Of a DNA stretch of 29,762 bases, positions 3 through 29,762 are shown in pieces (within the stretch, counting starts at the first letter, position 1; each line of letters opens with the position of its first letter). The DNA lies in the IMG/VR virus record IMGVR_UViG_3300042386_000224, positions 1-29,762 of that record, one strand, 5' to 3'. Origin of the DNA: a virus. Both the position numbers and the translations under genes were made by a program. The notes below the pieces were generated by a model. The model had not been told where the DNA came from. It searched no databases and saw only the letters and a list, made by a program, of their open reading frames with translations.

Positions 3-3000
3 AACGAATATAAACACTATATTTCTTCCAGAGGTGATGCATATGAGCGTTTCAAGTCTATGGATTGGCTTAGAAATAATGGCTACTCTTTCAGTAATCA
101 TGCTTTTGTTGACCATCGGGCTAGGATCTATGATCGTGGCCTTATTAGTCCGCAATCAGGAGAATCATTCAGACCTTTCTTAAATACTGAAGTTGAAAAA
201 GTTCTTGGTGAAGATGGTTATAGAAACTTTAGAGATCAAATAGGCGCGTTCATGGGCGGTCTGAATGATGTATTTGAAGGCAGATATAATTCATTGTCAT
301 TTACAGGCAGACAAAAGATTGCTGATAAATTGTGGCCAGAGATGGTAGATATTGGTAATAAAATGTTACGTGGTAAACCAGGAGATATTCGCGCTATATT
401 AGAGTCTGATATGGTGCAATTAGTTGAAGGCGAAGAGTTAGGTAAGTTCTTTAGGTTTGCTATGGAAGCGGCTAAGATAGATAATTATCTAAATGAAAAA
501 CCACTAGCTGTTATCGTAAAAGGTAATCCTAAGTTTATAAAAGGTAATCCGTTAGCTGATAAGTTTTATAACGATATAAAAGCTAAGTTAGAAAATAACG
601 GTTATCGAGTTGAATTTGACATTGGTGCAGATTTTACTGAACCTGATCAAAAAGCAGCATTAGTAGTTGGGCATTCGAGAGGCGTAGATAGATTGAAATA
701 TGCAGCTAAAACATCTAAAACATTTGAAATAAAAACTAAATCAGATGTTGGAAGTAGTCCTTTGCATTACACTTTGTCTGAGTCAGATTTGAAAAATTTA
801 GCTTCAACTAATAGAATGAATTCCTATAAAACTGCTCTTGCTCTTGAACAAGATGCTTCGTCATCTGGTGCACAGATTATTGCTTTAACTACTAAGAATA
901 AACAGCTTGCATCGCTATCTAATGTTGTTCCTACAAATCAGAAAAGACGTCTATATGATGAAATTGCTGCAGCAACATTTAATGATCCACGATTTAAAGT
1001 ATTAAATGAAAGATTAGGTCTCAATGAAAAGGATTTACGTAAAGCTGCAAAAGCTCAAAATATGGTTACGTTTTATGGAGCTGGAGAAAGAACTGGAATT
1101 CTTAATGTTGAAGGTAAGCTTGCAAAAGTATTGGAAAAGAAACCTGCAAAACCGCCTGAAGTAAAAGTGACAGAAGGTTTGTTATCTGAAAGACAAGACT
1201 CAGCTGGCTTATTACGTGTATTAGGTGTTGAAAACAAAACAGACCCTAATTATGTAGGTACACCAGACGAAATTATTAAAGCTCAAGGTGATTTAATTGC
1301 TAAAGCTATGAAAGGTAAGTTATCTCCTGCAGAGTTAAAAGATACATTTAAATGGTTACATACCGCTGATATTGAACTAACAGATGAACGAAAAGAACGT
1401 GCTACATATAAAACATTCGATCATAAGACTGGCGAGAAATTTTCTAAAGAGAAAATAGCTGAAAATAAAGCTAAATTTGAACAGCGCTCAAAAGGCGATA
1501 CTAAGAAATATATTGCTATGCAAGTTGTAGAAGAACTCGGTGAGTTTTTGGATGAGCATTTAAAATCTTTAAATGTCCCTTCTGATTCTAGAGCTTTCAA
1601 ATTATTAGAAGCTCAAAAACGTATTTTAAAGTCAAATAGATTTGGTGAAGATACTATCATTAAAGATGAAGCTAGTGTTTATAATCTAAAGACAAATAAA
1701 CAAGCAGCTGAAATGGCTTTGGAAGATGCAGGATTTACACCTGCTACTACAGATACAGAAAAGACAATTTCAGATCTTAATTCAGCGTTACAAGAAGAAT
1801 TAGTTAATGTAGCTAAAAAGCCTGAAACATTTGCACCTACTTTAGTTGTTAGAGCTAGTGATAGAGACAAAGTATTAAATGAAATATCAGCACGTGCAGC
1901 AAGATATGAAAAGTTTGATCCTGAAACTACTGCGCAACTAAAACAATTAAGAGAAAATGTAAAAGACATATTTAATAAAGGCCTAGATCCTGGTGACGAG
2001 ATTATGGAACAGTTATATTTCCTTGATCCTGCCACTAAAGACTTAGTGGAAAAGATGACACATACCTATGATATGGTTGTTACGCCAAGAGATTTTCAAG
2101 CTATTGCTAAATTAATGTCTGAGCATCTTAGTGAACAAGTACCTATTTTAAAAGACTTTACAAAATTTTTCGGCAGATTGGCTGAAGATTACCTGACTAA
2201 TGCCAAACCTTCTCAAGCTGCTTTAGATTGGAAATCAATAGGAACTACCGCAGTTTTAGGTGTTCGTAAAAAAGGTTATGTCCTCCCTGACAGGATAAGT
2301 GAAATACTAGGACTAAAAGCTGGTGAAGCGCTATCAGAGAAATTTTTAAAACGATTTGATGGCTGGAAACCAGATGGAACATTAGCTGATTTAATATATG
2401 GTGTAAAAGCACCTAATGACAGACGTACTGGATTTAAGGTATTTAGATTAGAACCTATTGAAAAATTAAATATATCTAAAGGTTTTGAAATATTTTATGC
2501 TAATAAGCTTCCTAAGTCATGGACTAATGTCCCATGGGTAAATTTTGATGGTAAGATTATCGAACAAAATTTCACACAATCTTTTGAAGAACGATTAGCA
2601 TATAAAGATAAAGATGGTAATTGGATTAATAACTTAGTCCAAATACAACAAAAGACCGAAGCTACTTGGTGGGAACAAGTAGTAAATGCTGATGGGAAAA
2701 TAAATGATATCGCAGATGCCACAAAAGCACGCACAGCTTATGCAGTCAACGGAAACCACTCCAATGACGCAACATTGGTCAAAAATTTCCACCTATGGGG
2801 ACGAGACAATAAGATTGCCACAAGCACCATTCACGATGCGTTTTTCGCCAATGCAGCCGATATGTTGGAGGCCCGGAAGGGTATAAGAAAACTTTACGCT
2901 AATGTATTAGATAAAAATCCTGTTAAAGTTACATTAGATGAAATGTTAGCAAGAGGTTTCCCTAAAGAATTATATGATCAATATTTAAACGAAGCTATTG

Positions 3001-3149
3001 ACAAAGGATTAATACCTGTAGCAGGCAAATCAGTTGTCGGTGGTAAAATATTAACAGAAAAAGACATCTTAACTAAAAAAGATGTTATGAGTGAAATTCC
3101 CGATCCAACTAAGTTTGATGATGATTGGGGTTTCTATGGAATAGGATAA
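3..3149 (+). CDS. Single-subunit (T7/N4-class) RNA polymerase, 5'-truncated by window edge
   Basis: Reads open from nt 3, so the gene starts upstream; the ATG at 60 is internal. Numbering from that ATG, the hallmarks of single-subunit RNA polymerases appear in order: a DxxGR-like motif DHRARIY (D18-R22; Gly replaced by Ala), motif A QDASSSGAQ with catalytic D265, motif B RKAAKAQNMVTFYG with R327, K331, M335 and Y339 in exact T7 spacing, a PWVNFDG strand matching T7 HWVTPDG, and motif C TIHDAF with catalytic D926. Spacing is far larger than in T7: about 100 extra residues (145-247, containing GHSRG at 204-208) just before motif A, and about 300 or more between motifs B and C. The promoter-binding N-terminal part is not visible. 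It probably transcribes phage genes, either made in the host or packaged in the virion; its place next to the capsid genes makes packaging plausible but unproven. Base composition changes around motif C (2705-2885). Confidence 0.88.
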   Translation, partial: NEYKHYISSRGDAYERFKSMDWLRNNGYSFSNHAFVDHRARIYDRGLISPQSGESFRPFLNTEVEKVLGEDGYRNFRDQIGAFMGGLNDVFEGRYNSLSFTGRQKIADKLWPEMVDIGNKMLRGKPGDIRAILESDMVQLVEGEELGKFFRFAMEAAKIDNYLNEKPLAVIVKGNPKFIKGNPLADKFYNDIKAKLENNGYRVEFDIGADFTEPDQKAALVVGHSRGVDRLKYAAKTSKTFEIKTKSDVGSSPLHYTLSESDLKNLASTNRMNSYKTALALEQDASSSGAQIIALTTKNKQLASLSNVVPTNQKRRLYDEIAAATFNDPRFKVLNERLGLNEKDLRKAAKAQNMVTFYGAGERTGILNVEGKLAKVLEKKPAKPPEVKVTEGLLSERQDSAGLLRVLGVENKTDPNYVGTPDEIIKAQGDLIAKAMKGKLSPAELKDTFKWLHTADIELTDERKERATYKTFDHKTGEKFSKEKIAENKAKFEQRSKGDTKKYIAMQVVEELGEFLDEHLKSLNVPSDSRAFKLLEAQKRILKSNRFGEDTIIKDEASVYNLKTNKQAAEMALEDAGFTPATTDTEKTISDLNSALQEELVNVAKKPETFAPTLVVRASDRDKVLNEISARAARYEKFDPETTAQLKQLRENVKDIFNKGLDPGDEIMEQLYFLDPATKDLVEKMTHTYDMVVTPRDFQAIAKLMSEHLSEQVPILKDFTKFFGRLAEDYLTNAKPSQAALDWKSIGTTAVLGVRKKGYVLPDRISEILGLKAGEALSEKFLKRFDGWKPDGTLADLIYGVKAPNDRRTGFKVFRLEPIEKLNISKGFEIFYANKLPKSWTNVPWVNFDGKIIEQNFTQSFEERLAYKDKDGNWINNLVQIQQKTEATWWEQVVNADGKINDIADATKARTAYAVNGNHSNDATLVKNFHLWGRDNKIATSTIHDAFFANAADMLEARKGIRKLYANVLDKNPVKVTLDEMLARGFPKELYDQYLNEAIDKGLIPVAGKSVVGGKILTEKDILTKKDVMSEIPDPTKFDDDWGFYGIG

Positions 3150-3153
3150 TTAT

Positions 3154-3288
3154 ATGTCAGCAGAAATTAAAAGATGTACATGTCAACACCCTAATCAAGA
3201 TAATCTCCACGGTAAACAAATGCGTGTAATGAACCCAGATCAAAAGAAAGGTTTTACATGTACTGTATGCGGAGCAAAACACAAATGA
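3154..3288 (+). CDS. Small zinc-ribbon protein (44 aa)
   Basis: A short ORF starting ATG 3154, four bases after the polymerase stop, with AGGATA overlapping that stop as a weak ribosome site. The product has a CTC pair (C8, C10) and a CTVCG pair (C36, C39), a four-cysteine arrangement fitting a single zinc-binding ribbon. Between them lie the QDNLHGK and RVMNP segments; the same overall pattern (CxCxH, QD, YG, RVxN, CTVCG) occurs in small uncharacterised proteins of other phages. Its stop overlaps the next start (ATGA), so the two are probably translationally coupled. Function is unknown; binding to nucleic acid or to the polymerase encoded just upstream is conceivable but only a guess. Confidence 0.72.
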   Translation: MSAEIKRCTCQHPNQDNLHGKQMRVMNPDQKKGFTCTVCGAKHK

Positions 3289-3506: not shown

Positions 3507-3527
3507 ACCCCGTTAAATTAACCCTAA
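3504..3527. repeat. Direct repeat copy 1, core CCCGTTAAATTAACCCTAA
   Basis: The 24-bp unit begins on the stop codon of the DUF2829 gene and matches copy 2 (3618-3641) at 23 of 24 positions. The inner GTTAA-A-TTAAC is a perfect 11-bp palindrome. It is followed by eight bases and then TCCCCC (3533-3538), an arrangement shared with copy 3 near 29720. It may be a promoter for the phage polymerase or a protein-binding site; orientation is not settled. Confidence 0.85.
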
Positions 3528-3545
3528 GTCGGTCCCCCTATATTA

Positions 3546-3616
3546 TAATCCCTTAGTTAATCAGTCTATCATATATTCTTAATAAATATACTAATAGATG
3601 TATATCTTAGGGATTA
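3546..3616. other. AT-rich interrupted hairpin between direct repeats
   Basis: Outer arms TAATCCCT (3546-3553) and AGGGATTA (3609-3616) are perfectly complementary. Inside them TCTAT (3565-3569) pairs with ATAGA (3594-3598), and TATATT (3572-3577) pairs with AATATA (3585-3590) around a 7-base loop. There is no T-run after the structure, so it does not look like an ordinary intrinsic terminator. The segment is about three-quarters A+T and lies exactly between the two direct repeats. An RNA processing site, a replication origin or a cruciform protein site are the main options. Confidence 0.55.
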
Positions 3617-3617
3617 A

Positions 3618-3641
3618 TAGAACCCGTTAAATTAACCCTAA
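3618..3641. repeat. Direct repeat copy 2, core CCCGTTAAATTAACCCTAA
   Basis: Shares 19 identical consecutive bases with copy 1 and 23 of 24 overall, 114 bp away. It lies 77 bp upstream of the scaffold start, where a late promoter for the head genes would be expected. It contains AATTAACCCT, the first ten bases of the phage T3 promoter, but is not followed by a GGG start at the T3 distance. The downstream C-run seen at copies 1 and 3 is missing here. Confidence 0.85.
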
Positions 3642-3717: not shown

Positions 3718-4356
3718 ATGACCGAAAATGTCGAACAAGAAGAAACTAACAATACTACTCCGCCTCCTGCTCCTTCCAATCCTCCTGTGGATGATGTGGA
3801 CTCGAAAATCCAGGAAGCTCTTAAACCTATTAAGTCCAAACTTGATAATGCTTATAAGGAACGTGACGACGCGTTAAAGAAAGCTGCAGAGTATGAACAA
3901 AAAGAAAAAGAAGCTGAATTAAAAAGACTTCAAGAAGAAGGAAAACATAAAGAAGCTTATGAACTTCAGTTAGCGGAAGCCAATGCTAAATTGGAAACGA
4001 TAACAAAACGTAACATAGAACTTGCTAGGGACTTAGAAGTAAAATCTATTCTTAGTGGGTATACGTTTAGGAGTGATAAAGCTGCAGATATGGCATATAT
4101 GGATGTGGCATCGCAACTTATACAAAATGAAAATGGAGTATGGGTGCATAAATCAGGAACTGATCTAAGAACCTTTATAAAACAATTTTCTGAAGACGAT
4201 AATAATTCTTTCTTATTCAAACCAAAAGTTTCGACAGGGGCAGGTCAGACAAGTTCTAGCAGTACTTCTCAAGATACTTCGAATAAATCTTTATTCAACT
4301 TATCACAAGATGAAGTACTTAAACGTGCTGCTGAAGGGTCACTTCGCAGGAAATAA
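3718..4356 (+). CDS. Capsid scaffolding protein (212 aa)
   Basis: Recognised from position (directly before the major capsid gene) and composition. A proline-rich acidic N terminus (residues 1-30) is followed by a long charged helix rich in Lys, Glu, Gln and Ala (about 30-110) likely to form a coiled coil. Then come a mixed region (about 110-165), a Ser/Thr/Gln linker (about 170-190), and a short C-terminal helix ending in LRRK. Head scaffolds often use such a basic C-terminal helix to hold coat protein. Start ATG 3718 follows AAAGGAA (3704-3710); a small hairpin TGAGT/ACTCA (3692-3704) sits just upstream of that ribosome site. No protease motif is seen. It would be absent from mature virions. 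No sequence-specific family signature was recognised, so the call rests on context. Confidence 0.8.
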   Translation: MTENVEQEETNNTTPPPAPSNPPVDDVDSKIQEALKPIKSKLDNAYKERDDALKKAAEYEQKEKEAELKRLQEEGKHKEAYELQLAEANAKLETITKRNIELARDLEVKSILSGYTFRSDKAADMAYMDVASQLIQNENGVWVHKSGTDLRTFIKQFSEDDNNSFLFKPKVSTGAGQTSSSSTSQDTSNKSLFNLSQDEVLKRAAEGSLRRK

Positions 4357-4377: not shown

Positions 4378-5601
4378 ATGGGTGCTTCAACTTTAACCCT
4401 CCCTACAGGGGTTTCGGGTTTAAATAATAACTATGTATTACAAGAAGCGATTGGTGCTTATAGCGATGAAGCTTACACCACTGCAAAGAAATTATCTGGT
4501 ACAGGTATCACTTCTTCTAATCCACAAATTGACACTAGCACAGAAACCTTTATCGGTCAAATGCGTTGGTTCAAACCATTAAACCCAACTATCAATGTTG
4601 CGTCATTAACTGACTCTACAGATGGTACAAAAACTAACTATGACACTGACTACAGCACATACATTAAAACTGTGCGTACACATGGTGCTGAAAAAGTTAA
4701 TATGCAACAAATCGTAACACAACAAGACGGTTTAGCTAAAATTGGTCGTGACTTCGGTGAAACCCGTGCTCAAGACGAACACAATGCTATTCTTTCTGTG
4801 TTAAAAGGTGTTGCTGTTTCTGAATTATTGAATGGTGCTGCCACAGGTACAGGTGTAACTGGTGTAGGCGGTCAAACATTCACCAATGATCCTGCAGATA
4901 AATCTTATGGTTTCTATGTTGATCTTGGTACAAACAAAATTACTACTGCTAATGGTGTTTCACCTGCAGGCGCTACTAACTATGCATACCAAGGCGCGTC
5001 ACGTGCTGAAGGTTTCTTAAATGCATTTGGTATGGCATTCAAAGACTATGAACCAGATTGGGCATACTTAGTTGTATCTCCTGAAACTTTGGCTTCATTC
5101 CGTTCAGCTAACTTTGTTGACGAAACAACTATTGTTGATGGTAACATTAACTTTAACACAATCTTTAACGGTAAATTCCGTTTAATTACTACACGTGCTT
5201 CACAATCATTATCATCTGCTGAATTGACTAAAATCAATACAGGTGCTGGTGTTGACGTAGTAGGTACTAAAACTTCTTTCATTGTATTGCCTGGTGCAAT
5301 CGCTATGGAAAACTTAACTGTACCTGATTCTGTTGAAGTATACCGTGATGCTAACAAATATAAAGGTGGCGGTACAACTTCTATCTGGAATCGTTGGGGT
5401 TATGTATTAGCTCCTGCTGGTTACGATTGGAATGGTGCTAAAACTGCATTCCCATCTGATGCTGACTATATGGGTGTTGTTGAAGGCGGTGTTACTAAAG
5501 CACTTACTGCAGCATCTGTTATTGGCAGCACAAGAGGTGTGTGGACACGTAAAACACAATCTGCATTATCATTAGGTATCTTGCCTGTATTCCATTCTTA
5601 A
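4378..5601 (+). CDS. Major capsid protein (407 aa)
   Basis: Follows the scaffold by 21 bases with ribosome site AAGGA (4363-4369 region) and ATG 4378. Length and position fit an HK97-fold major coat protein of the group encoded with a separate scaffold. The N-terminal third contains the segments TFIGQMRWFKPLNPTINVAS and EKVNMQQIVTQQDGLAKIGR, followed by a helical DFGETRAQDEHNAILSVLKG that would match the long spine helix. The region with YLVVSPETLASFRSANFVDE resembles capsid A-domain text, and WNRWGYVLAPAGYDWNG near residue 340-356 is typical of C-terminal P-domain strands. Codon choice changes here toward AAC, GAC, TTC and GGT, the expected bias of the most abundant phage protein. The downstream gene starts 10 bases later. 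Confidence 0.87.
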   Translation: MGASTLTLPTGVSGLNNNYVLQEAIGAYSDEAYTTAKKLSGTGITSSNPQIDTSTETFIGQMRWFKPLNPTINVASLTDSTDGTKTNYDTDYSTYIKTVRTHGAEKVNMQQIVTQQDGLAKIGRDFGETRAQDEHNAILSVLKGVAVSELLNGAATGTGVTGVGGQTFTNDPADKSYGFYVDLGTNKITTANGVSPAGATNYAYQGASRAEGFLNAFGMAFKDYEPDWAYLVVSPETLASFRSANFVDETTIVDGNINFNTIFNGKFRLITTRASQSLSSAELTKINTGAGVDVVGTKTSFIVLPGAIAMENLTVPDSVEVYRDANKYKGGGTTSIWNRWGYVLAPAGYDWNGAKTAFPSDADYMGVVEGGVTKALTAASVIGSTRGVWTRKTQSALSLGILPVFHS

Positions 5602-7496: not shown

Positions 7497-7526
7497 GGAG
7501 GGTATTTCGGTACCCTCCACTTTTCT
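7497..7526 (+). terminator. Hairpin after tail tube gene, likely partial terminator
   Basis: Arms GGAGGGTA (7497-7504) and TACCCTCC (7511-7518) pair perfectly around the loop TTTCGG, followed by ACTTTTCT. The T-tract is short and interrupted, so it is probably a leaky terminator or a 3'-end stabiliser. It separates the abundant tube protein from the low-copy chaperone and tape measure genes. Confidence 0.75.
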
Positions 7527-7539
7527 ATTAGGAACCTAT

Positions 7540-7755
7540 ATGGCTCAAGATAAACCATTCAGCTTAGAGTATGTCGTTGGCATCACTGTCAAACACATGC
7601 TTAAAAGTATTGATATTAGTATTAATAAAACATTCGAAAGAACGAAAGATGATTCGCTAACTCCAGATAAGAAAACTGAAGCTTTCGAAACACTCTCAAT
7701 TTTACATCAAATGCGAGCACAACTAGATGAACGCAAAATTAATCAAGGTAAGTAA
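7540..7755 (+). CDS. Conserved-looking small protein of unknown function (71 aa)
   Basis: I do not recognise a family. ATG 7540 follows AGGAA about 10 bases upstream, directly after the tube-gene hairpin. The product is a mostly helical, charged protein with the segments FSLEYVVGITVKHMLKSIDI and TFERTKDDSLTPDKKTEAFE and a C-terminal helix LSILHQMRAQLDERK. It lies between the tail tube and tail chaperone genes, so it may help tail assembly, but no motif shows this. Its stop is one base before the chaperone start, so the two are probably coupled in translation. Confidence 0.6.
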   Translation: MAQDKPFSLEYVVGITVKHMLKSIDISINKTFERTKDDSLTPDKKTEAFETLSILHQMRAQLDERKINQGK

Positions 7756-7756
7756 C

Positions 7757-8080
7757 ATGTCAGAAGCAAAAGGTATTAAAGCACTTGTTGGTCAACGTAT
7801 GACTAAAACAGTTAAATTCTTAGGCAGTGATGTTAAGATTTCTAAACTATCTGTTTCAGAAGTTTTAGATATTCAAAACAAAGCCAAAGACGCTGAGAAA
7901 GATGAAAATGCAGGTTTAGAATTACTCAAATCAGTTGTTCGTTCAGCTGTCGATGGTGGTGCTGATCTTGATGATTCAGATTTCGATAGTTTCCCTATGG
8001 ATGAATTATCAAAACTCTCTAATGAAATTATGAAATATTCAGGTCTAGGCCAAGGTCAAGACGCGGGAAAGTCATCTTAA
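7757..8080 (+). CDS. Tail assembly chaperone, gpG-like (107 aa, zero-frame product)
   Basis: The start is ATG 7757 (MSEAKGIKAL), not the in-frame ATG at 7727 inside the previous gene. The product carries the segments KISKLSVSEVLDIQNKAKDA, SVVRSAVDGGADLDDSDFD and SFPMDELSKLSNEIMKYSGL, a pattern typical of the G-type tail assembly chaperones that coat the tape measure protein before the tube polymerises. The acidic DDLDD-like turn and the last helix SKLSNEIMKYSG are the strongest identifiers. A lambda-type slip site lies four codons before the stop, giving a longer GT product. Neither form is expected in mature virions. Confidence 0.87.
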   Translation: MSEAKGIKALVGQRMTKTVKFLGSDVKISKLSVSEVLDIQNKAKDAEKDENAGLELLKSVVRSAVDGGADLDDSDFDSFPMDELSKLSNEIMKYSGLGQGQDAGKSS

Positions 8081-8415
8081 GTGCAGAAGAGTTACCGATA
8101 TTTGAATTAGCTTTTCATCTCAAAATGCCAGTGTATCAAATCTATGAAGAAATGACTTATGAGGAGATGCTAGGTTGGTTTAGTTATTTAGAACAAAGAC
8201 CAATAGAGTGGCGAGCAGATGATAGAGCAGCTAAATTAATTCAAGTGCAAGGTGTTAAAGAAAAACCTTGGCAACTTTTTACTTCATTAGATGCTATTTA
8301 CAATCCAAAATCTAATAAGAAAGACGGTGACTTTGATGCTAATAGCTTTAAACGTTCTGGATTCTTTCAAAAACTTGCAAGCGCCTCTGGTGGCGAAAAT
8401 TTATTTGGAGGATAA
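7757..8415 (+). CDS. Tail assembly chaperone GT, made by -1 programmed frameshift
   Basis: Ribosomes that slip at 8065-8071 leave frame G after GGA AAG and continue at GTC 8071, giving GKVILSAEELPIFELAFHLK and then MPVYQIYEEMTYEEMLGWFS. This T part is open in the -1 frame across the G stop and runs to 8415, so an ATG at 8125 is internal and not an independent start. It ends with the region SGFFQKLASASGGENLFGG. In lambda the G:GT ratio matters for tail assembly: G coats the tape measure and the T domain recruits the tube protein. The same division of work is expected here. The fusion would have about 219 residues. Confidence 0.85.
8065..8071 (+). promoter_or_regulatory. Slippery heptamer GGGAAAG for -1 frameshift
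   Basis: In the zero frame it reads G-GGA-AAG, the same heptamer as in phage lambda G-T. Slippage to GGG-AAA keeps good anticodon pairing and moves translation into the open -1 frame, three codons before the G stop at 8078-8080. I see no strong hairpin right after it; lambda also works without an obvious one. Confidence 0.87.
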
Positions 8416-8416
8416 T

Positions 8417-8713
8417 TTGTCTGTAAAAATAAATATGAATTTCAAAAAAGAGTTAGTAAAGAAATTCGAAAACAACAAAGAAGCGGAGTTACATAAACTA
8501 ATTGATGCTTTGAAAGATGCTACACCTGTAGATACAGGTAATGCCAGAGACGGATGGAAGATAGAAGACGGACGTATAGTTAATCATGTAGAATATATTG
8601 ATGAACTAAATGCAGGTTCTAGCACACAAGCGCCATCTCATTTTATTGAGAGAACTTTGTTGTCCTTCTCAGAAGTAGACGCAAATGGTGTCATTGTAAC
8701 ATCAGCTAATTAA
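8417..8713 (+). CDS. Tail completion / minor tail protein (98 aa), TTG start
   Basis: The best start is TTG 8417: GGAGG (8407-8411) stands five bases before it and overlaps the end of the GT frame. An ATG at 8435 has no own ribosome site, and the distant ATG at 8291 would add 42 residues of out-of-frame text. The product has a helical N terminus (FKKELVKKFENNKEAELHKL) followed by ATPVDTGNARDGWKIED and VNHVEYIDELNAGSSTQAPS, then a helix HFIERTLLS. The TPVDTGNxRxGW and LNxGSSxQAPxxFIE motifs are typical of HK97 gp10-like/tail completion proteins of small size. Such genes usually sit near the neck genes; here it follows the chaperones. A terminator separates it from the tape measure gene. Confidence 0.7.
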   Translation: MSVKINMNFKKELVKKFENNKEAELHKLIDALKDATPVDTGNARDGWKIEDGRIVNHVEYIDELNAGSSTQAPSHFIERTLLSFSEVDANGVIVTSAN

Positions 8714-8721
8714 GACAACAC

Positions 8722-8758
8722 ACCCCTGAAGAATCTAATGATTCCTAAGGGGTTTTTT
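8722..8758 (+). terminator. Intrinsic terminator before tape measure gene
   Basis: ACCCCT (8722-8727) pairs with AGGGGT (8748-8753), and the inner GAATC (8731-8735) pairs with GATTC (8740-8744) around TAAT, followed by TTTTTT (8753-8758). This is a full stem plus T-run. The ribosome site of the tape measure gene (AAGGAG, 8761-8766) starts right after it, so it likely attenuates tape measure expression. Confidence 0.85.
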
Positions 8759-8774
8759 ATAAGGAGTATAAAAG

Positions 8775-11700
8775 ATGTCAGGCATTGTAATTGATGTCGA
8801 AGCAAGGGTCGACAAGGCCCAAAGAGATTTAGAGCATTTAAATAATTCTGTAAGCAGTATTAGTAAAAGTGTATCAAGTGTAACTTCAGGATTTTCTAAG
8901 TTAGCAGGTGCTTTATCAGTAGGTGGAACAATTGTTGCATTAACACAAATTGATTCTACTTTTACATCTATTGAAAATAATATAAGATTAGTCACAGGAG
9001 CTACTAAAGAGTTTGGTGCCGCATATATTGAAGTACAGAAAATTGCCAATGAGACACGTTCTACTTTTGAAAGTACTGCTCAGATTTTTGCTAAACTGGG
9101 TATTGCAAGTTCATCATTAAATGCTTCATCTGAATCAATTTCAAAAGCCGCTAAGTCATTGCAAATGGCCGGTATGGTTGCAGGAGGTTCTACTGAAGGA
9201 TTTAAAGCTGCAATGATGCAATTGGGGCAAGCACTAGGTTCAGGTGTTTTACGCGGTGAAGAATTTAATTCTATAATGGAACAAGCTTTACCTGTTGCGC
9301 AAATGATTGCTGACTCTTTAAATATTTCAGTAGGCGCATTACGTGAAATGGCTAACCAAGGCCGCATAACTTCAGAAGTAGTGTTTAATGCTTTACTCAC
9401 ACAATCTACAGCAATTGAGAAAAAATTTAAATTAACTGGAGCAACTTTAGGCAGCGGGATTGATAAAGCAAGAGAATCTTTCTCAATATTATTTAATGAA
9501 ATTTCAAAAAGTTTTGGTATATCTTCAGGACTGGGAAATCTATTCTTTAAAGCCGGTCAAAGCGCATCAGCCTTAGCTGATGATATTAAATTAATGTCAT
9601 TAAATATGAATATATTTTGGAGAGAATGGTCTCCAAGATTATCTAATGCTTTTTATCCATTTATATTTGCTTTTAATAAAGCAATGGCCCTAGTAAAGAC
9701 TATTTTAGCTGCGTCAGGTATTGAAAAATTTTTAATTAATATGTGGCATGAAATGGAATATGCTGCTGTTAATGTAATTAGAAGAGTTTTTACTAATTTA
9801 GAAAATACTGGTAAACTATTAAAAGCATTTGACAAGGGTAATTTATTTACAGGAACTATTGATTCACTAAAACTATTACCTAAAGTATTCGGAAGTATGT
9901 TAAATATGACAATTTCGGAATATGAAGACTGGGGAAATACTTTTATCAAGAAATCCAAAACTAAATTTTATGTAATGGGGCAGACATTTGCAAGTGGCGG
10001 CCAATACTTAATGGGAATGCTAGGCAATGCAATCGCTAGCTATGGATTAAACCTTAGTGGATTAATTCCCGGTTTTACATCTTTAAGAGATTTAATTGTA
10101 GATAGAACATTAAAACCTATAATAAAGATGTTTAAAACATTAGGTAATAATTTAGTATTCTCTGAATTTGATTTTATAACAAAACCACTTACGCTGCTTG
10201 GCACAGCATTACGTAAGCTACTAGGAGAAGACTTAGTAGAAATGGTAGTAGCTGTTTCCGAAAAGTTTGATACGTTTAATACTATTCTTGCAAAGATAGT
10301 TGCAGCTATATTTCCTCCATTGCGTGGATTATGGGCATTAATAGAGTTAATAGGTGATACTGGCAGCGTTATTAATATTTCATTAAATGCCAATTTATTT
10401 AATGCTAGTTACAATTTTGTTTCATCTAGACTAAAATTATTATATAGAACTATTAAAGATTTTACAACAAATACTGATTTGTTTAAAACATATGGCGAAA
10501 AAGTAACTTCAAAATTAAAAGAAAGTTTTAAAACGGATGGAATAAGCATATGGTATAAAAGTATTTTCGATGGTCTTAAGACTCAAATTGTCAGAGATTT
10601 AAAAGCTTTAAATACAGAGATAGAAAATATTTCCGGCAAATTAGGTTTTAAAATAAATATTTCTGCTTCATTAAAATCTGCTGCAGCTACTATACGTAAT
10701 TTTTCCGAAACAGTAATAGGCTACTTCAGGCTGATATGGGATAAAGTTGTTGGTCATTCATATTGGACAGATACAATTTCAGAGATTAATAGTTCGTCAG
10801 AAAAACTATCAAGTGGACCTCTAGGGAAAATTATATCATTTGCTAAAAATGTTATTGCTACTTTCAAAGGTTTATATAGTTCTATAAAACAATTTATATC
10901 AGAATTAAAAACATCAACAGTAGTTATTGATGTTGATAAATACAAAAGTACTTTTGAAGATATAAAACAATTTTTACTTGAATTAAAAGAAAAAGCAATT
11001 GCATTTGGAGATACTATTGCTGATGTTTGGAATAAGCTTAAAGATCCTGACTATCTAAATAGTGAAGAATTTAAGACTAAAATAAAATCTGCATTTAGTG
11101 AAGTTAAACAATGGATAAGTGAAGCGCAAGCTAATATAAATATTGTAATTGAAAGCGAAGGGTTTAAGACGGTTGTTTCTGAAATAAAGTCTTTAGGTAG
11201 TGTGCTATCAGATACCATTGAAAAATCAGTAGGTAAAACCGCACCTCAATTTGCTGAAGCTTTTGTAGCAACATTTGCGGCTTTATTAGCTCAAAAATTC
11301 ATGCCCGATGGACCAATCGGCTCATTCATTAAAAATACACTAGTATTATCTGCTGTACATGCATGGGCAAGTATTGAATCATTGTGGGAAAGTCTGCCTA
11401 GTGCGTCTATTGGTGTAAAGATAGGGCGCGTAATAGGAACAGCTATTGGCACTGCTATAGGTTATTTAATTACAGAATTACCTAGTATATTGAAACAAGT
11501 ATTTGGATTCTTAGGCGGATTTGGACAAGGTCTTTTAGAAGGTTTATTTCCAATAGGTGGGTTTGTAAGTGGTATATTTACACTATTAGAGGGAATGGGT
11601 TTAAACACCGCTTTTGGGCTAATAGGTACATGGCTTTTTGGAAGTAAAGTGCTTTCACTGTTTGGCATGCTTGGCTTATTTACAGAAAAGATTGCTGCAT

Positions 11701-14700
11701 TAAGTGCTCTGACTGCAGGTGTAGGCAGATTCTTTGCTGGAAATTTAGGGTCTTCGGCATCAACATGGGCAGCAAGTCCTTTAGCGTTTATCTCTAGAGA
11801 ATTATTCGGCCCTGGTCGTAAAACAATGATGCTTGGAATGACTGCGCTTGCTCTTGATATGCTTGGAGCGTTTGATGTAGTGTTTAAAGATAGTCCCTTA
11901 ACACATACTATATTTCAAATCATTACAGGCGGTTTTGCTATATACGGAAAAGAAGTATTTTCTTATATAACGAAAGGTGTCCTATTTCCGATGATAAATG
12001 AATTAGCTATTGCTATTGCACCATATAGTGTAAGATTAGCAACGCTGCTTTTCAGTTTGGTAATACCGCCATTAAATCCTGGTGCGCCATTCTTAGAAAA
12101 GATGTTTAGCAAATCATTAATATTTATTGAAGAATTAATGAGTAATCTTGGAATTCTTTTATTATTTATTAAAGATATTGCATTTGCATTTATTAAAGTT
12201 TTTGATTTTGCTAAATTTATGCGTGTAGGCGCAATTCTTGCTGTTACTACTGCGCTTGGGTATCTGATTGCTAATTTAAAAGAATTGAATAAACTGCCAG
12301 AAACAAAAGTTGATGTAGCTCAAGCAGATCTTCCAAAGAAAGATATGTATACGCAATTAGTTGCAAATATGCAGGAAAATAAAAATCTTTCTACAACTGT
12401 ATTTGATCCTAATACTGCTACAGCATCTGCTGATACCACTATGACTGATGCGACATATTTTAGAAGTCGTTGGGATCAGATTAAAGACGGTTGGCAGTCT
12501 TTAAAAGATAAATGGAGTGAAGGTGTAGACAACTTTACAGAAAATGTAATTAGAAAAAATACACCAAGTTCCTTTGATCAATCTGAATTAGATTCTATGC
12601 TCATGGGGCCTAAGTTACCTAAAACAGGCCTTGACAGTACTATGGAGGCAATGAAAAAAATTTGGGGCGATCGTAAAGCTGAATTTGAAAAATTCGTAAT
12701 AGCAGTACAGGCTGGTGATTTCAATAAACCTTCTGTACCCGAACAAACCTTTTTAAATAAAGAACTTACAGGTACAGGCGGATTTAAATACAACCTAGAG
12801 ACTCAAAAAGCAATTAATCCTACAGCAGATGCAATGGCAGATGCAGGACAATCAATTGTCAAAGAATTGATACCATTAAATATTGTATTAGACAATTTAA
12901 GTGGTGCTGTCAAAGGGGATATATCATATTTTGATGCATTTACTGAATCTGTTACAGGGTTATGGAAAGGATTTAGACAGTTAAGACACGATATTGGTGC
13001 GCCATTTGTTGAATTAGCCAAAGCATTATCTACTTTTGGTAATACAGCTATGCTTGTAGGAATGTTATCAGCTATATTACTTATGATAAAAGCCGCTGTG
13101 CATTTTGCAAACAAACTTTCTGCCGCAGTGGGAGTCGAAGCAATAAATCTTCAAATTTTAAACTTTATAAAAAATGCATTATTGTTTAGAGCGGCAATTG
13201 TAGGTGTTGAAGGTATTATAATTGTGTGGTCAGTCGCTATCGGAATAGCTATAGCCGCTTTTAGTGACTTCTCTGATTACATGTCTTCGAGTATGACACA
13301 GCTTCAAGCAAAATTACAGCAATACACTCAAGAAATTGGAGATGCTGTTGTTGCAAGTGGTGTTTCATTTTCATTACTTTCCGCTATCGGATGGGATGTT
13401 GTATACAATCTACTAGCTGCTGTTGGAAGAGCTCTTTTATTTGTAACGATAAAATTTAGAAAAGTTATATGGGAAACTGTAAAATTAACTTATACTCTAG
13501 TTGAGGCAACAGCATTCGCGTTCTTTGATTTAATTAAAGCGCTTTTTACCATGGATTTTGCACCTTTCGTAGCAAGACTTAAAGCAACCGTTGATACTGT
13601 AAAAACATTATTTGCAACATTTGCAAGTACAAAAGCGTTCTTTGTTATTTCATTTGCATTTATAGGTTATGAGACATTTATAAACTATTATTCAAAAGCC
13701 GGAGAACAAGCTGGATATGGTTTTGTAGATGCATTTATTGAAGCTATATCAAATAAGACTACACAACTGTTGGCGTATTTAGGTGTAATGTTATTAAGTT
13801 TTCGTTCTATTATTAATGCGCAGTTTACTTCAATTTTAACATTGCCAGTATCGCTACTAGGTACAGCAATGGGCGGTATTACACGTATAGCAGCAAGTCT
13901 TGCAGGTGGTTTTGCAGGAGAGTATATCGCCAATGTAATGTTACATCGTCCAGAATTAGAAGGAATAGGCAACTTAATTGGTGCAATTATAGGTTGGAAG
14001 TTAGGAAAATCATTATCTACAGCAATTATTGAATCTGCAATGAGTCCTTTAAAGAAAGGATTTATCGGACTATTAATAGCTGGCATTACACTGGCTTTTG
14101 CTATATTTGAAGGATTTGTCAATACGTCTAAAAGCTGGTCAGAAAATCTTAGTGATGTGATTGTAAAACTTAAAGAAATTTTAGGTTTCAAATATGAGCC
14201 AATGGATATTACATCAGGGTTGTCTAAGCAACAAAAAGGCTTACTTGCAACTGCAGGTGTATCTATTAGCTATGATCTTTCTCAAGTAAATCGTGAGCTA
14301 TTGACTCCAAAAGTAAGAGAAGGCTTAGACGGTGCAGTATCTAAATTTGCTGACAGTATTGACGATTTCCGTAAAACAAGTATTGAAGGTAGTCGTGACG
14401 AAATAGATAAAAGCATTGAAGATCTTCAAGCTCGAAATAGAGCTGTTGAAATATGGGCGCAAAGAGCTGTAGCTGAATCTAAGTTTGATATACAAAAAGG
14501 AATTCCTAAACTTAAAGAAAGTTTGAAAATTGGTGAATTAACTAATGAGCAGAAAGCTGTTTATGGGTTTAATTCTAAAGTTGCTAATCAAGAAATTGCA
14601 TCTAAAATTGGAAGTAATAAATTACCTGAAGCAGACCTGTATCAAATTGATGTAAAGTTAAATGATACTAGTTTGACGATGGTATTAGATGATATTAATA

Positions 14701-17700
14701 AATCTTTTGAAAGAAATACATCGGCCATTACAGCTCCATTTGACGAATCTATTAGAAATGCATTAACAACATTAAATAAAGCAACACCAGCTTTAATAAG
14801 CAGTGTAAAAGAAGCTTTACCTTTTGCTAATCCTGAGATTAAAAGTCAAAAATATTTAGATGAAAATATCTATAAAAATTCAGAAGCTATAAAACCGCTT
14901 ATAGCAGAGTTGAATAATTTAGTAATAGCTCGTAATAAATATATTTGGCAAATGGAAGACGCTGCTAAATCTCAGCAGAAATTTAATAAGACTATTTCAG
15001 ATGCTAAAGCGATAGGTATTAAAATAGATTCAAATTCTTTTATAATGACAGATGAATTAGCAGGTAAGTTTAATTCATTAACTGCATCTATTAAAAGATT
15101 AGATCAACAAGCTCAAGAAACTGATAATACAGATGTAAGAGTAAATCTTAAAATTACAGCAGAATCTTTAAAGCAATACGGTCAAGCATTAGCAGATAAA
15201 AACGCAAGTGCTGATAAATCAATAAGAGAATCTATTAAAGGATATTCTGAAGAATTAGGTTTTCAATTACCTAAAGCTTTTGAAAATTTACCTAAAACTG
15301 ATTTAGAAGGCCCTTTAGCTGCCGTAAGAGATACTAAATTTAAAGCTACAATAGGTAAAGTTGCATTACCAGAAATTCCTGAAAAGCCAGGGCTGATGAG
15401 TCAATTAGAAGGCACAGCGCAATATAAGAAACTACAGGATGAGTATAATAATATTCTTCAAATCAGAAAAGATATTGAAGAGGCGGGAAATACAACATCT
15501 TTAGATTTAGAAATTACTAAATATTCTGAGTTGCAAAAGTTAATGGAGAAAGCAAAAACCAATCCATTAACAGCTAAGTTGTTGACAGATGAAGCTCTTT
15601 TAAGTAATTCTATCAATAGAGTAACCTCAGAATACGCAGGATACACTAAAGAGAAAATTGACAGCATTGGTATAGAATTAGCTGATATAAATCTTCAAAA
15701 ACAAATCTATAAAGATAATGGTGAGAAATTAGCTGAACTAAATAGCAGAGCTGAGAATTTAGTGTCTTCAATAAAATCAGTAGATTTAGTACCACTTAAA
15801 GAAAGTTTTGGCGTATTTATTAGTGAGATATCTGATAAGGAAATTCAATTAATTTCTCCAGAGCAAGCTGAAATATTAAGACAATCTGCTTTACATATTG
15901 CAAATCTTAAAGAGCAATTAACAGCTTTAGCTAAAACACCTAATTCTGCAGACAAGCAACGTGAGATATATCAACAAATTGTTGCAGAAGAAGATAGAGG
16001 CCGCAAAGTTGCTGTTGAATCTTCTTTAGCAAGAAAAGGTACTTTAACCAGTGGAAGGCTTTCAGCAGCTGCAGACTTAATGAATCGTAAGTATGTTAAT
16101 CAAGATAGTCTAATGACTTTATTTGGTATGAATGCTGCGATTGAATCTTTGAAAGAAAAGATTTCATCTACAAAAGATCCTGAATTATTTGTACAATGGA
16201 AAAATGAATTAAATTCTGCTGAAAAGAATTTAGAAAGATTTAAATCTACTTTTGATGATATTACTTCTAAAACAAGCAATGTTAGAGATATATTCAAAAC
16301 TGATATAACAGACAGAGATTTAGCTAAATTGCCTAATGGCATTGTTAGAGGTTTAATTGGTGCAGCTCAAAAATTCAAAATTGAACTAGAAGATGCGTTA
16401 TCCCAGAGTGGTGATGAATTTAGTGACAAGGCTAAAAATCTATTTGGCAAATTAAAAGAAATTGAAAGAGCTGGAACATTTATTACATTTTTCAAAGATC
16501 TTGCAAATAGCGTAGAAGAGTCATTTACTGATGGTATTGATGCATCATTAGCTAAAATAAAAGCAGGATTGCCAGAATTAAATATTAGTGCATATAGACT
16601 CTCTGCAATGTCTGATCAAGGAAAAGGATTAGCAAGTGAAGCTTCTAATCTTTCAATGCTAAATCGTATTGCTGGTATGTCAGGACTTTCTGATGCACAA
16701 AAAGAAATTTTAAACAGATTTGATAAAACAAACTCTGCTGAAATTCTTAAAAAGCTTACAGATGATTTTCTAAGTAAAGGTTCTGATTTAAACAAAATGC
16801 TTCAAACCCCCTTAGAAAATAGCATTGACGCCACTAAGACATTAACAACTAGCCTAGATAATTTAGGCATTAAAGTTGATGAGCTGGCAGGATCTATGGC
16901 AACAAAGAGTTTAGAAGTGCCTGCTAAAGAAACACCAAGTGTATTATCGCCATATATGCCTGAAGCTAAACCTTCTACAGGCCCAAGAACTTCTTCATGG
17001 CTTGATAGTGCAATGGATAAGATTCATTCTACTATTAAATCTCCTGCAGCAAAACCTGTATTTGAAGCTAATGTAGAAAAATGGAGTGATTTGATTAATG
17101 ATGCGATTAAGGAATTTCCTGGCGTAACCGCAGAAATGGTCAAAACAGTTGTACAACATGAATCTCAAGGGTACAATATACCTGCAAAAGTCAAGCCAGG
17201 CGTAATAGATACTTCTTTTGGATTAGGACAAATAAATAATGCTACTGCAAAATTCTTAGGTGTTGATAAAACTAATGAAGCAGACTCTTTAAGAGGCATA
17301 GCTAAATACTTGTATCTTAACCTTCAAATGTTTAAGAATATTCCTGATGCATTCAGAGCATATGCTGCTGGTCAGACCGGTGCTAAACTAGGAAGAGGTT
17401 ACGATAAGCAAGAAGAGTTCATGGCAATCTATGAGGGCAGAGCTGGCATCAAAGCTGGCAAAGCTGTAGCAATGGAAGGACGTAAGCCTACTGAACCAAG
17501 TGAGCAAAAAGTTTCTAATGTTAGTTTATCTAAATTTCAAGCTACATCTGCACAAGCTGCGCAAGAAGCAACAATTAAATATACATCCGAAAAAGCCAGA
17601 TTTGATGAAATTAGAAATAAATTTGGTGAAAATATTAGAGGAGCTTTAGTTGATTTTGGTGTTGTAGATAAGGAACTTGCTAATAAACTTGGAGAAGAAT

Positions 17701-29716: not shown

Positions 29717-29737
29717 GAACCCGTTGAATTAACCCTT
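29717..29737. repeat. Third copy of the control repeat, CCCGTTGAATTAACCCT
   Basis: Differs from the core of copies 1 and 2 by one base (GTTGAATTAAC in place of GTTAAATTAAC). As at copy 1, a C-run follows after 8-9 bases: TT and then ten Cs (29746-29755). It lies after the last late gene, where it could drive the next operon beyond the window. Confidence 0.8.
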
Positions 29738-29762
29738 CAGACGTTCCCCCCCCCCTCAATTA

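Follow-up and report, generated by a model that had tools for sequence, protein, structure and literature searches.

The analysed stretch of DNA, here called the window, comprises 29,762 nucleotides of a virus (IMG/VR record IMGVR_UViG_3300042386_000224) and opens within a long reading frame on the plus strand (3-3149), the 5' end of which is open, as the gene begins upstream of the window edge. The window sequence is contained at 100% in the 77.5-kb IMG/VR contig L004, where the full gene spans 7511-13147 and encodes a product of 1878 residues; its start at 7511 lies 2490 bases before the third base of the window. In the full protein, residues 146-250 are a Phage_Mu_F domain (PF04233, E 1e-13; 52.2 bits versus a cut-off of 29.6), and the N-terminal 370 residues match the head morphogenesis family PHROG_241 (E 3e-60), followed by the polymerase part. 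The frame within the window matches RNA_pol (PF00940, E 6e-11; 42.2 bits versus a cut-off of 22) and the RNA polymerase family PHROG_414 (E 5e-20). The sequence-only reading of this DNA had placed a polymerase gene at 3-3149; the polymerase is real, but the gene is incomplete there, the whole protein having 1878 residues and a Mu-F N-terminus. The features of the window are:

3-3149, plus strand: C-terminal 1048 residues (831-1878) of the Mu-F/RNA-polymerase fusion, by PF00940 and a fold match to T7
111-125, plus strand: DxxGR motif, here DHRAR (D37-R41, Gly to Ala), by hhalign to T7 DWRGR
492-794, plus strand: candidate mobile in-frame insert 1 (residues 164-264, 101 residues), just before motif A, by DNA identity versus flanks
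852-869, plus strand: motif A with the catalytic D284 (DASSSG), invariant in 54 of 54 relatives, by hhalign to T7
1050-1079, plus strand: motif B (K350...Y358-G359), invariant in 54 of 54
1143-1838, plus strand: candidate mobile in-frame insert 3 (residues 381-612, 232 residues), between motifs B and C, by DNA identity versus flanks
2832-2837, plus strand: motif C (H944-D945), invariant in 54 of 54
3509-3527, plus strand: class M promoter-like motif CCCGTTAAATTAACCCTAA, copy 1, upstream of the scaffold and capsid genes
3623-3641, plus strand: class M promoter-like motif, copy 2, upstream of the scaffold and capsid genes
3718-4356, plus strand: scaffold gene, downstream neighbour (PHROG_206, E 1e-8)
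4378-5601, plus strand: major capsid gene, downstream neighbour (PHROG_247, E 1e-18)
29720-29738, plus strand: class M variant CCCGTTGAATTAACCCTTC, where the presumed early region begins, just outside the window

The portal gene lies directly upstream of the fusion gene (PHROG_145, E 1e-55). The order portal, fusion, scaffold, capsid is the usual place of a minor-head protein of the Mu-F / SPP1 gp7 type, and the polymerase is found there as the C-terminal portion of this protein. Thus, the portal gene, which had seemed to be displaced by the polymerase, is simply the gene immediately upstream. PF04233 was found once per genome, within the fusion, in 13 of 13 genomes. The genome also carries siphovirus tail genes, among them a 3892-residue ORF at window 8775-20453, which is in tape-measure position and is a gene separate from the fusion. 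A 43-residue ORF with a CxC...CxxC pattern resembling a zinc ribbon is located between the polymerase and the scaffold gene (3154-3285). Attempts at prophage or host assignment gave a phage contig binned with a gammaproteobacterial MAG as the sole lead.

The motifs DxxGR, A, B, and C had been read from the sequence, and they are indeed present with the same residues: D284, K350, Y358, and D945 in ORF numbering from base 3 correspond to D265, K331, Y339, and D926 if numbering starts at the ATG of base 60. The AlphaFold model of the window ORF, which was based on a 36-row alignment and was of moderate quality (pLDDT 67.5, pTM 0.56), aligned end to end with residues 347-883 of T7 RNA polymerase (Z 20.2, 424 residues, 3.2 A, 17% identity). 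Structure prediction had been proposed as a check, and a T7-type polymerase fold was thus found. Taken together with PF00940, PHROG_414, and motifs A, B, and C, this predicted fold supports the assignment as a single-subunit RNA polymerase. From the fold alignment, we infer that D284, K350, Y358, and D945 would cluster in one active site.

A relative with a more compact protein was modelled over residues 346-1545 (pLDDT 78.4, pTM 0.71), and residues 225-1200 of this model, that is up to its last residue, aligned with residues 36-883 of T7 RNA polymerase (1s76; Z 22.0, 532 residues, 3.6 A). In view of this alignment, the protein is predicted to be a complete T7-type enzyme with palm, fingers, and thumb that includes the N-terminal domain. 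The same model matched the yeast mitochondrial polymerase as well as it matched T7. The N4 virion RNA polymerase (vRNAP) gave Z scores of 11-12.6, as compared to 20-22 for the T7 and mitochondrial enzymes, although rate differences could also depress the N4 score; N4 vRNAP is therefore not the obvious nearest kin of the predicted enzyme. At the sequence level, kinship between the two found no support, as hhalign gave no significant match when the family profile was compared to the N4 vRNAP domain. A polymerase "like that of N4" had been suggested, and this likeness applies to the logic of the system, kinship being unsupported and the fold being nearer to the T7 and mitochondrial enzymes. Sequence searches of the PDB returned nothing useful with the raw protein, and weak matches to T7 and N4 RNAP2 with the family profile.

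By a profile scan, genes for relatives were found in at least 549 stretches of IMG/VR. Among 50,697 phage records, the fusion occurs only in EBPR siphovirus 1, DSS3_VP1, and DSS3_PM1, where the annotation in every case refers to the head half or reads hypothetical. The Mu-F plus polymerase architecture is common to EBPR siphovirus 1, DSS3_VP1, and all 54 full-length relatives that we aligned. The aligned proteins reach down to about 60% identity, with DSS3_VP1 at about 28%, and the catalytic D, K, Y, G, H, and HD as well as both charged residues of DxxGR are invariant in them. The glycine of DxxGR, which had already been noted to be an alanine in the window, is alanine in 49 relatives, glycine in three (DSS3_VP1 included), and valine in two. 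The dN/dS of the polymerase part was about 0.05-0.11 where dS was measurable, some pairs being near saturation. This strong purifying selection, together with the invariant catalytic residues, suggests that the polymerase is a working enzyme, and catalytic activity may be expected from these signs of conservation.

The spacing between motifs A and C had attracted attention, with 661 residues between D265 and D926 as compared to 275 in T7, and both figures are correct. However, the spacing is 431 in the compact relatives, 430-455 in others, and 318 in DSS3_VP1, so that the wide spacing is real but is no family trait. What had been concluded from the very wide spacing must be dropped, as most of the extra length comes from an apparently recent mobile insert: insert 3 accounts for most of the excess (230 of the 661 residues) and is missing from about half of the close relatives. 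Of the two insertions that had been named as the cause, the one between motifs B and C thus explains this part, whereas the one before motif A lies outside the A-to-C interval. Insert 1 is rarer than insert 3 and is absent from most relatives. Group I introns were also considered as a cause of the wide spacing and rejected, as Rfam found none within the window and only in relatives.

Both inserts look recently mobile. The DNA of insert 1 is 98% identical to that of contig L033, with flanks of 81-84% identity, and insert 3 is 90% identical to that of L036, with flanks of 75-81%. In contig L049 (10505-11182), a 232-residue insert-3 module is present in frame at the insert-1 site, so that this module has occupied two different sites of the protein. 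Homologs of insert 1 are small stand-alone hypothetical genes of phiKZ-like (nucleus-forming) jumbo phages; it resembles gp115 of Burkholderia phage FLC9 and gp429 of 201phi2-1. Neither insert could be given a function. Inteins were rejected, as there are no intein end residues and no C-terminal His-Asn, and the ORF reads through. We propose that both inserts are optional mobile domains that are dispensable for catalysis.

The polymerase genes of some relatives are split by group I introns (Rfam RF00028), some of which carry HNH ORFs:

L018, 820-1380: two group I introns
L019, 2390-2691: group I intron
L022, 10746-10981: group I intron
L042, 1197-1432: group I intron
EBPR siphovirus 1, gp48: group I intron

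The intron sites are in motif B, at two adjacent positions, and close to motif C, which implies that homing has repeatedly targeted the catalytic motifs. The fusion gene of EBPR siphovirus 1 is interrupted at motif B, with an HNH ORF between the parts. Around motif C in the window (2697-2880), the GC content at third codon positions is about 0.49, as compared to about 0.2 in the rest of the gene, and some relatives with a more divergent upstream flank share this patch almost unchanged. It is perhaps an old co-conversion tract of an intron.

A stand-alone second single-subunit RNA polymerase is encoded in 18 of the 18 near-complete records tested (17 IMG/VR contigs and DSS3_VP1). It is mostly one frame of 690-790 residues, and it is split or extended in some records. 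In the phage's own genome (G001), it is located on the minus strand at contig positions 71554-73603 as frames of 548 and 404 residues with an ORF between them, and it is probably split by an intron.

Two classes of promoter-like motifs were found in six genomes. The class M motif CCCGTTAAATTAACCC has 34 sites on the coding strand and one on the opposite strand, with an expectation of about 0, and the sites are intergenic and mostly ahead of operons, including scaffold/capsid. Class M sites form pairs (3509-3641 in the window) with a distance of 114 or 156 bases, which recur at corresponding positions of two genomes and enclose a CCCCC run and an AT-rich stretch. The class E motif GCGGAAA-N4-GGTATCTTATATGA has 19 intergenic sites on the coding strand as compared to two on the opposite strand, counted as the core with one mismatch, for which 0.1-0.75 sites per strand are expected. 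In all six genomes, the second polymerase is preceded by at least two class E sites at a distance of about 1-6 kb. When all viral contigs were scanned with the class E pattern alone, 65 stretches were returned; among the 19 contigs that were new to the analysis, 14 contained the fusion, including 12 of the 13 longer than 53 kb. This retrieval demonstrates co-occurrence within the lineage, and shared descent alone would give the same result. Neither motif was found in DSS3_VP1, as expected if promoters diverge with their enzymes.

Contiguous blocks of such length resemble T7-type promoters more than sigma-70 promoters. A hairpin is the hallmark of N4 vRNAP promoters, and no conserved hairpin of this kind was seen in the class E motif. 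The class E motif could be read by the host polymerase. A search of the early region for host sigma-70 promoters gave 26 promoter-like sites versus 34 expected in shuffles and thus no enrichment. The TGGGGCGCACAACTAGAA repeat was rejected as a promoter, as it falls inside coding sequence.

Based on the fusion, its place next to the portal, the predicted fold, the catalytic residues, the second polymerase, and the motif distribution, all of which are directly supported by sequence and models, we propose that the phage builds a minor-head protein whose C-terminal two thirds are an active T7-type polymerase, and that this protein is packaged, ejected, and starts an early-to-late cascade. We assign this reading a probability of about 0.68. 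The Mu-F part would anchor one or a few copies at the portal inside the capsid, and upon infection the fusion protein would exit through the tail together with the DNA. Its polymerase would then transcribe the early genes, including that of the second polymerase, from GCGGAAA-N4-GGTATCTTATATGA, and the second polymerase would in turn transcribe the middle and late operons from CCCGTTAAATTAACCC. Catalytic activity, packaging, ejection, and the pairing of each enzyme with its motif are what we infer here from the analysis as a whole. As a counterpoint to ejection, a protein of about 1500-1900 residues must pass a siphovirus tail.

The sequence-only reading had offered a late-gene polymerase or a packaged virion polymerase, and we favor the packaged one because the enzyme is the C-terminus of a minor-head protein and because a second polymerase is present in every near-complete relative. 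If it served the late genes, the fusion would be made late and cut or kept in the cell for their transcription, and packaging would be incidental. The position of the gene in the late operon amid head genes fits such a role, as do the class M motifs directly downstream of the fusion and ahead of scaffold and capsid. However, a late polymerase that is itself encoded in the late operon would come too late for the genes depending on it, every near-complete genome already has a separate stand-alone polymerase, and being fused to the sole Mu-F protein of the phage would direct the polymerase to the capsid. We thus consider a late-gene polymerase unlikely.

Transcription by T7 RNA polymerase pulls the phage genome into the cell, and this coupling of transcription and entry is established. 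Transcription-coupled genome entry has also been proposed for phage P23-45 (PMC10770324). The fusion could likewise be packaged and ejected for DNA entry, its transcription pulling the genome in while the host RNA polymerase makes the first mRNAs. We regard this as quite improbable, as all six genomes have a conserved, phage-specific early motif ahead of the second polymerase, which suggests a dedicated early polymerase; besides, a role in entry and a role in gene expression are mutually compatible. It is highly improbable that the polymerase domain is a structural relic without catalysis on a Mu-F fusion. The replacement of the DxxGR glycine by alanine or valine in 51 of 54 relatives and the strong divergence from T7 (only 17% identity in the fold match) would agree with a relic, but every catalytic residue is kept even in relatives with about 60% identity and in DSS3_VP1 with about 28%, and the dN/dS of 0.05-0.11 likewise speaks against it.

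The proposed packaged polymerase has precedents for its parts. Each SPP1 capsid contains one to two copies of the Mu-F protein gp7, bound to the portal (PMC5576092), and delivery of Mu-F fusions into the host has been proposed (PMC5512222). Mu-F fusion proteins and polymorphic toxins share with our protein the N-terminal Mu-F domain and a C-terminal effector that is predicted to be delivered with the phage DNA (PMC5512222, PMC5576092). However, the reported effectors are toxins, nucleases, ADP-ribosyltransferases, and others, whereas the C-terminus here is an RNA polymerase; a family search of the fusion matched no toxin family, and a Mu-F/RNA-polymerase fusion was not found in PMC5512222 or PMC5576092. 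The siphovirus P23-45 of Thermus has a virion RNA polymerase, gp96, fused to the tape measure, a second RNA polymerase that is not in the virion, and two distinct promoter motifs (PMC10770324), all of which parallels the present case, but its enzymes are two-barrel (cellular-type) polymerases fused to the tape measure, as opposed to a T7-type enzyme fused to a Mu-F minor-head protein. Coliphage N4 (Schitoviridae) shares a T7-type palm polymerase among head genes (gp50) and a separate later RNA polymerase. The N4 vRNAP has about 3500 residues with its own ejection and C-terminal domains and belongs to a podovirus, in contrast to the C-terminal polymerase, N-terminal Mu-F domain, and siphovirus tail genes found here. 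N4 vRNAP is reported to be almost always fused to a metallopeptidase domain (PMC5512222), and according to Iyer et al., N4-like virion RNA polymerases are restricted to N4-like phages.

Virion RNA polymerases have been described for few groups, namely N4-like, phiKZ-like, and crAss-like phages and P23-45. The fusion is probably a virion RNA polymerase with a new carrier (Mu-F) and a separate origin. We found no description of a Mu-F/RNA-polymerase fusion in a literature search; the DSS3_VP1 genome paper (Curr Biol 2021) was beyond reach, and the novelty is therefore provisional. Beyond the mechanism itself, we lean slightly towards a broader view, in which portal-tethered T7-type enzymes would form a separately evolved class of virion RNA polymerases that is widespread in uncultivated siphophages, has a dedicated early promoter, and drives a two-polymerase cascade without host RNA polymerase, its gene being, in addition, a preferred target of group I introns, at the catalytic motifs, and of mobile in-frame domains. 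This would place a T7-type enzyme with at least hundreds of homologs in siphophages, on a small, well-known Mu-F anchor of known capsid site. If true, a Mu-F protein carrying an enzyme that has to function in the new host would directly support the delivery of Mu-F fusions along with the phage DNA. With the two promoter motif classes, a model of ordered transcription becomes readable from metagenomic genomes.

As there are cultured relatives, DSS3_VP1 and DSS3_PM1 (Naomviridae), the presence of the enzyme in the virion, its promoter use, and its independence of the host polymerase are directly testable. The fusions of these phages and of EBPR siphovirus 1 (gp47-gp49) are true homologs at the same place after the portal. 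In DSS3_VP1, the portal is followed by a 1463-residue "minor head protein-like protein" that lacks both inserts, and the record names only its head part.
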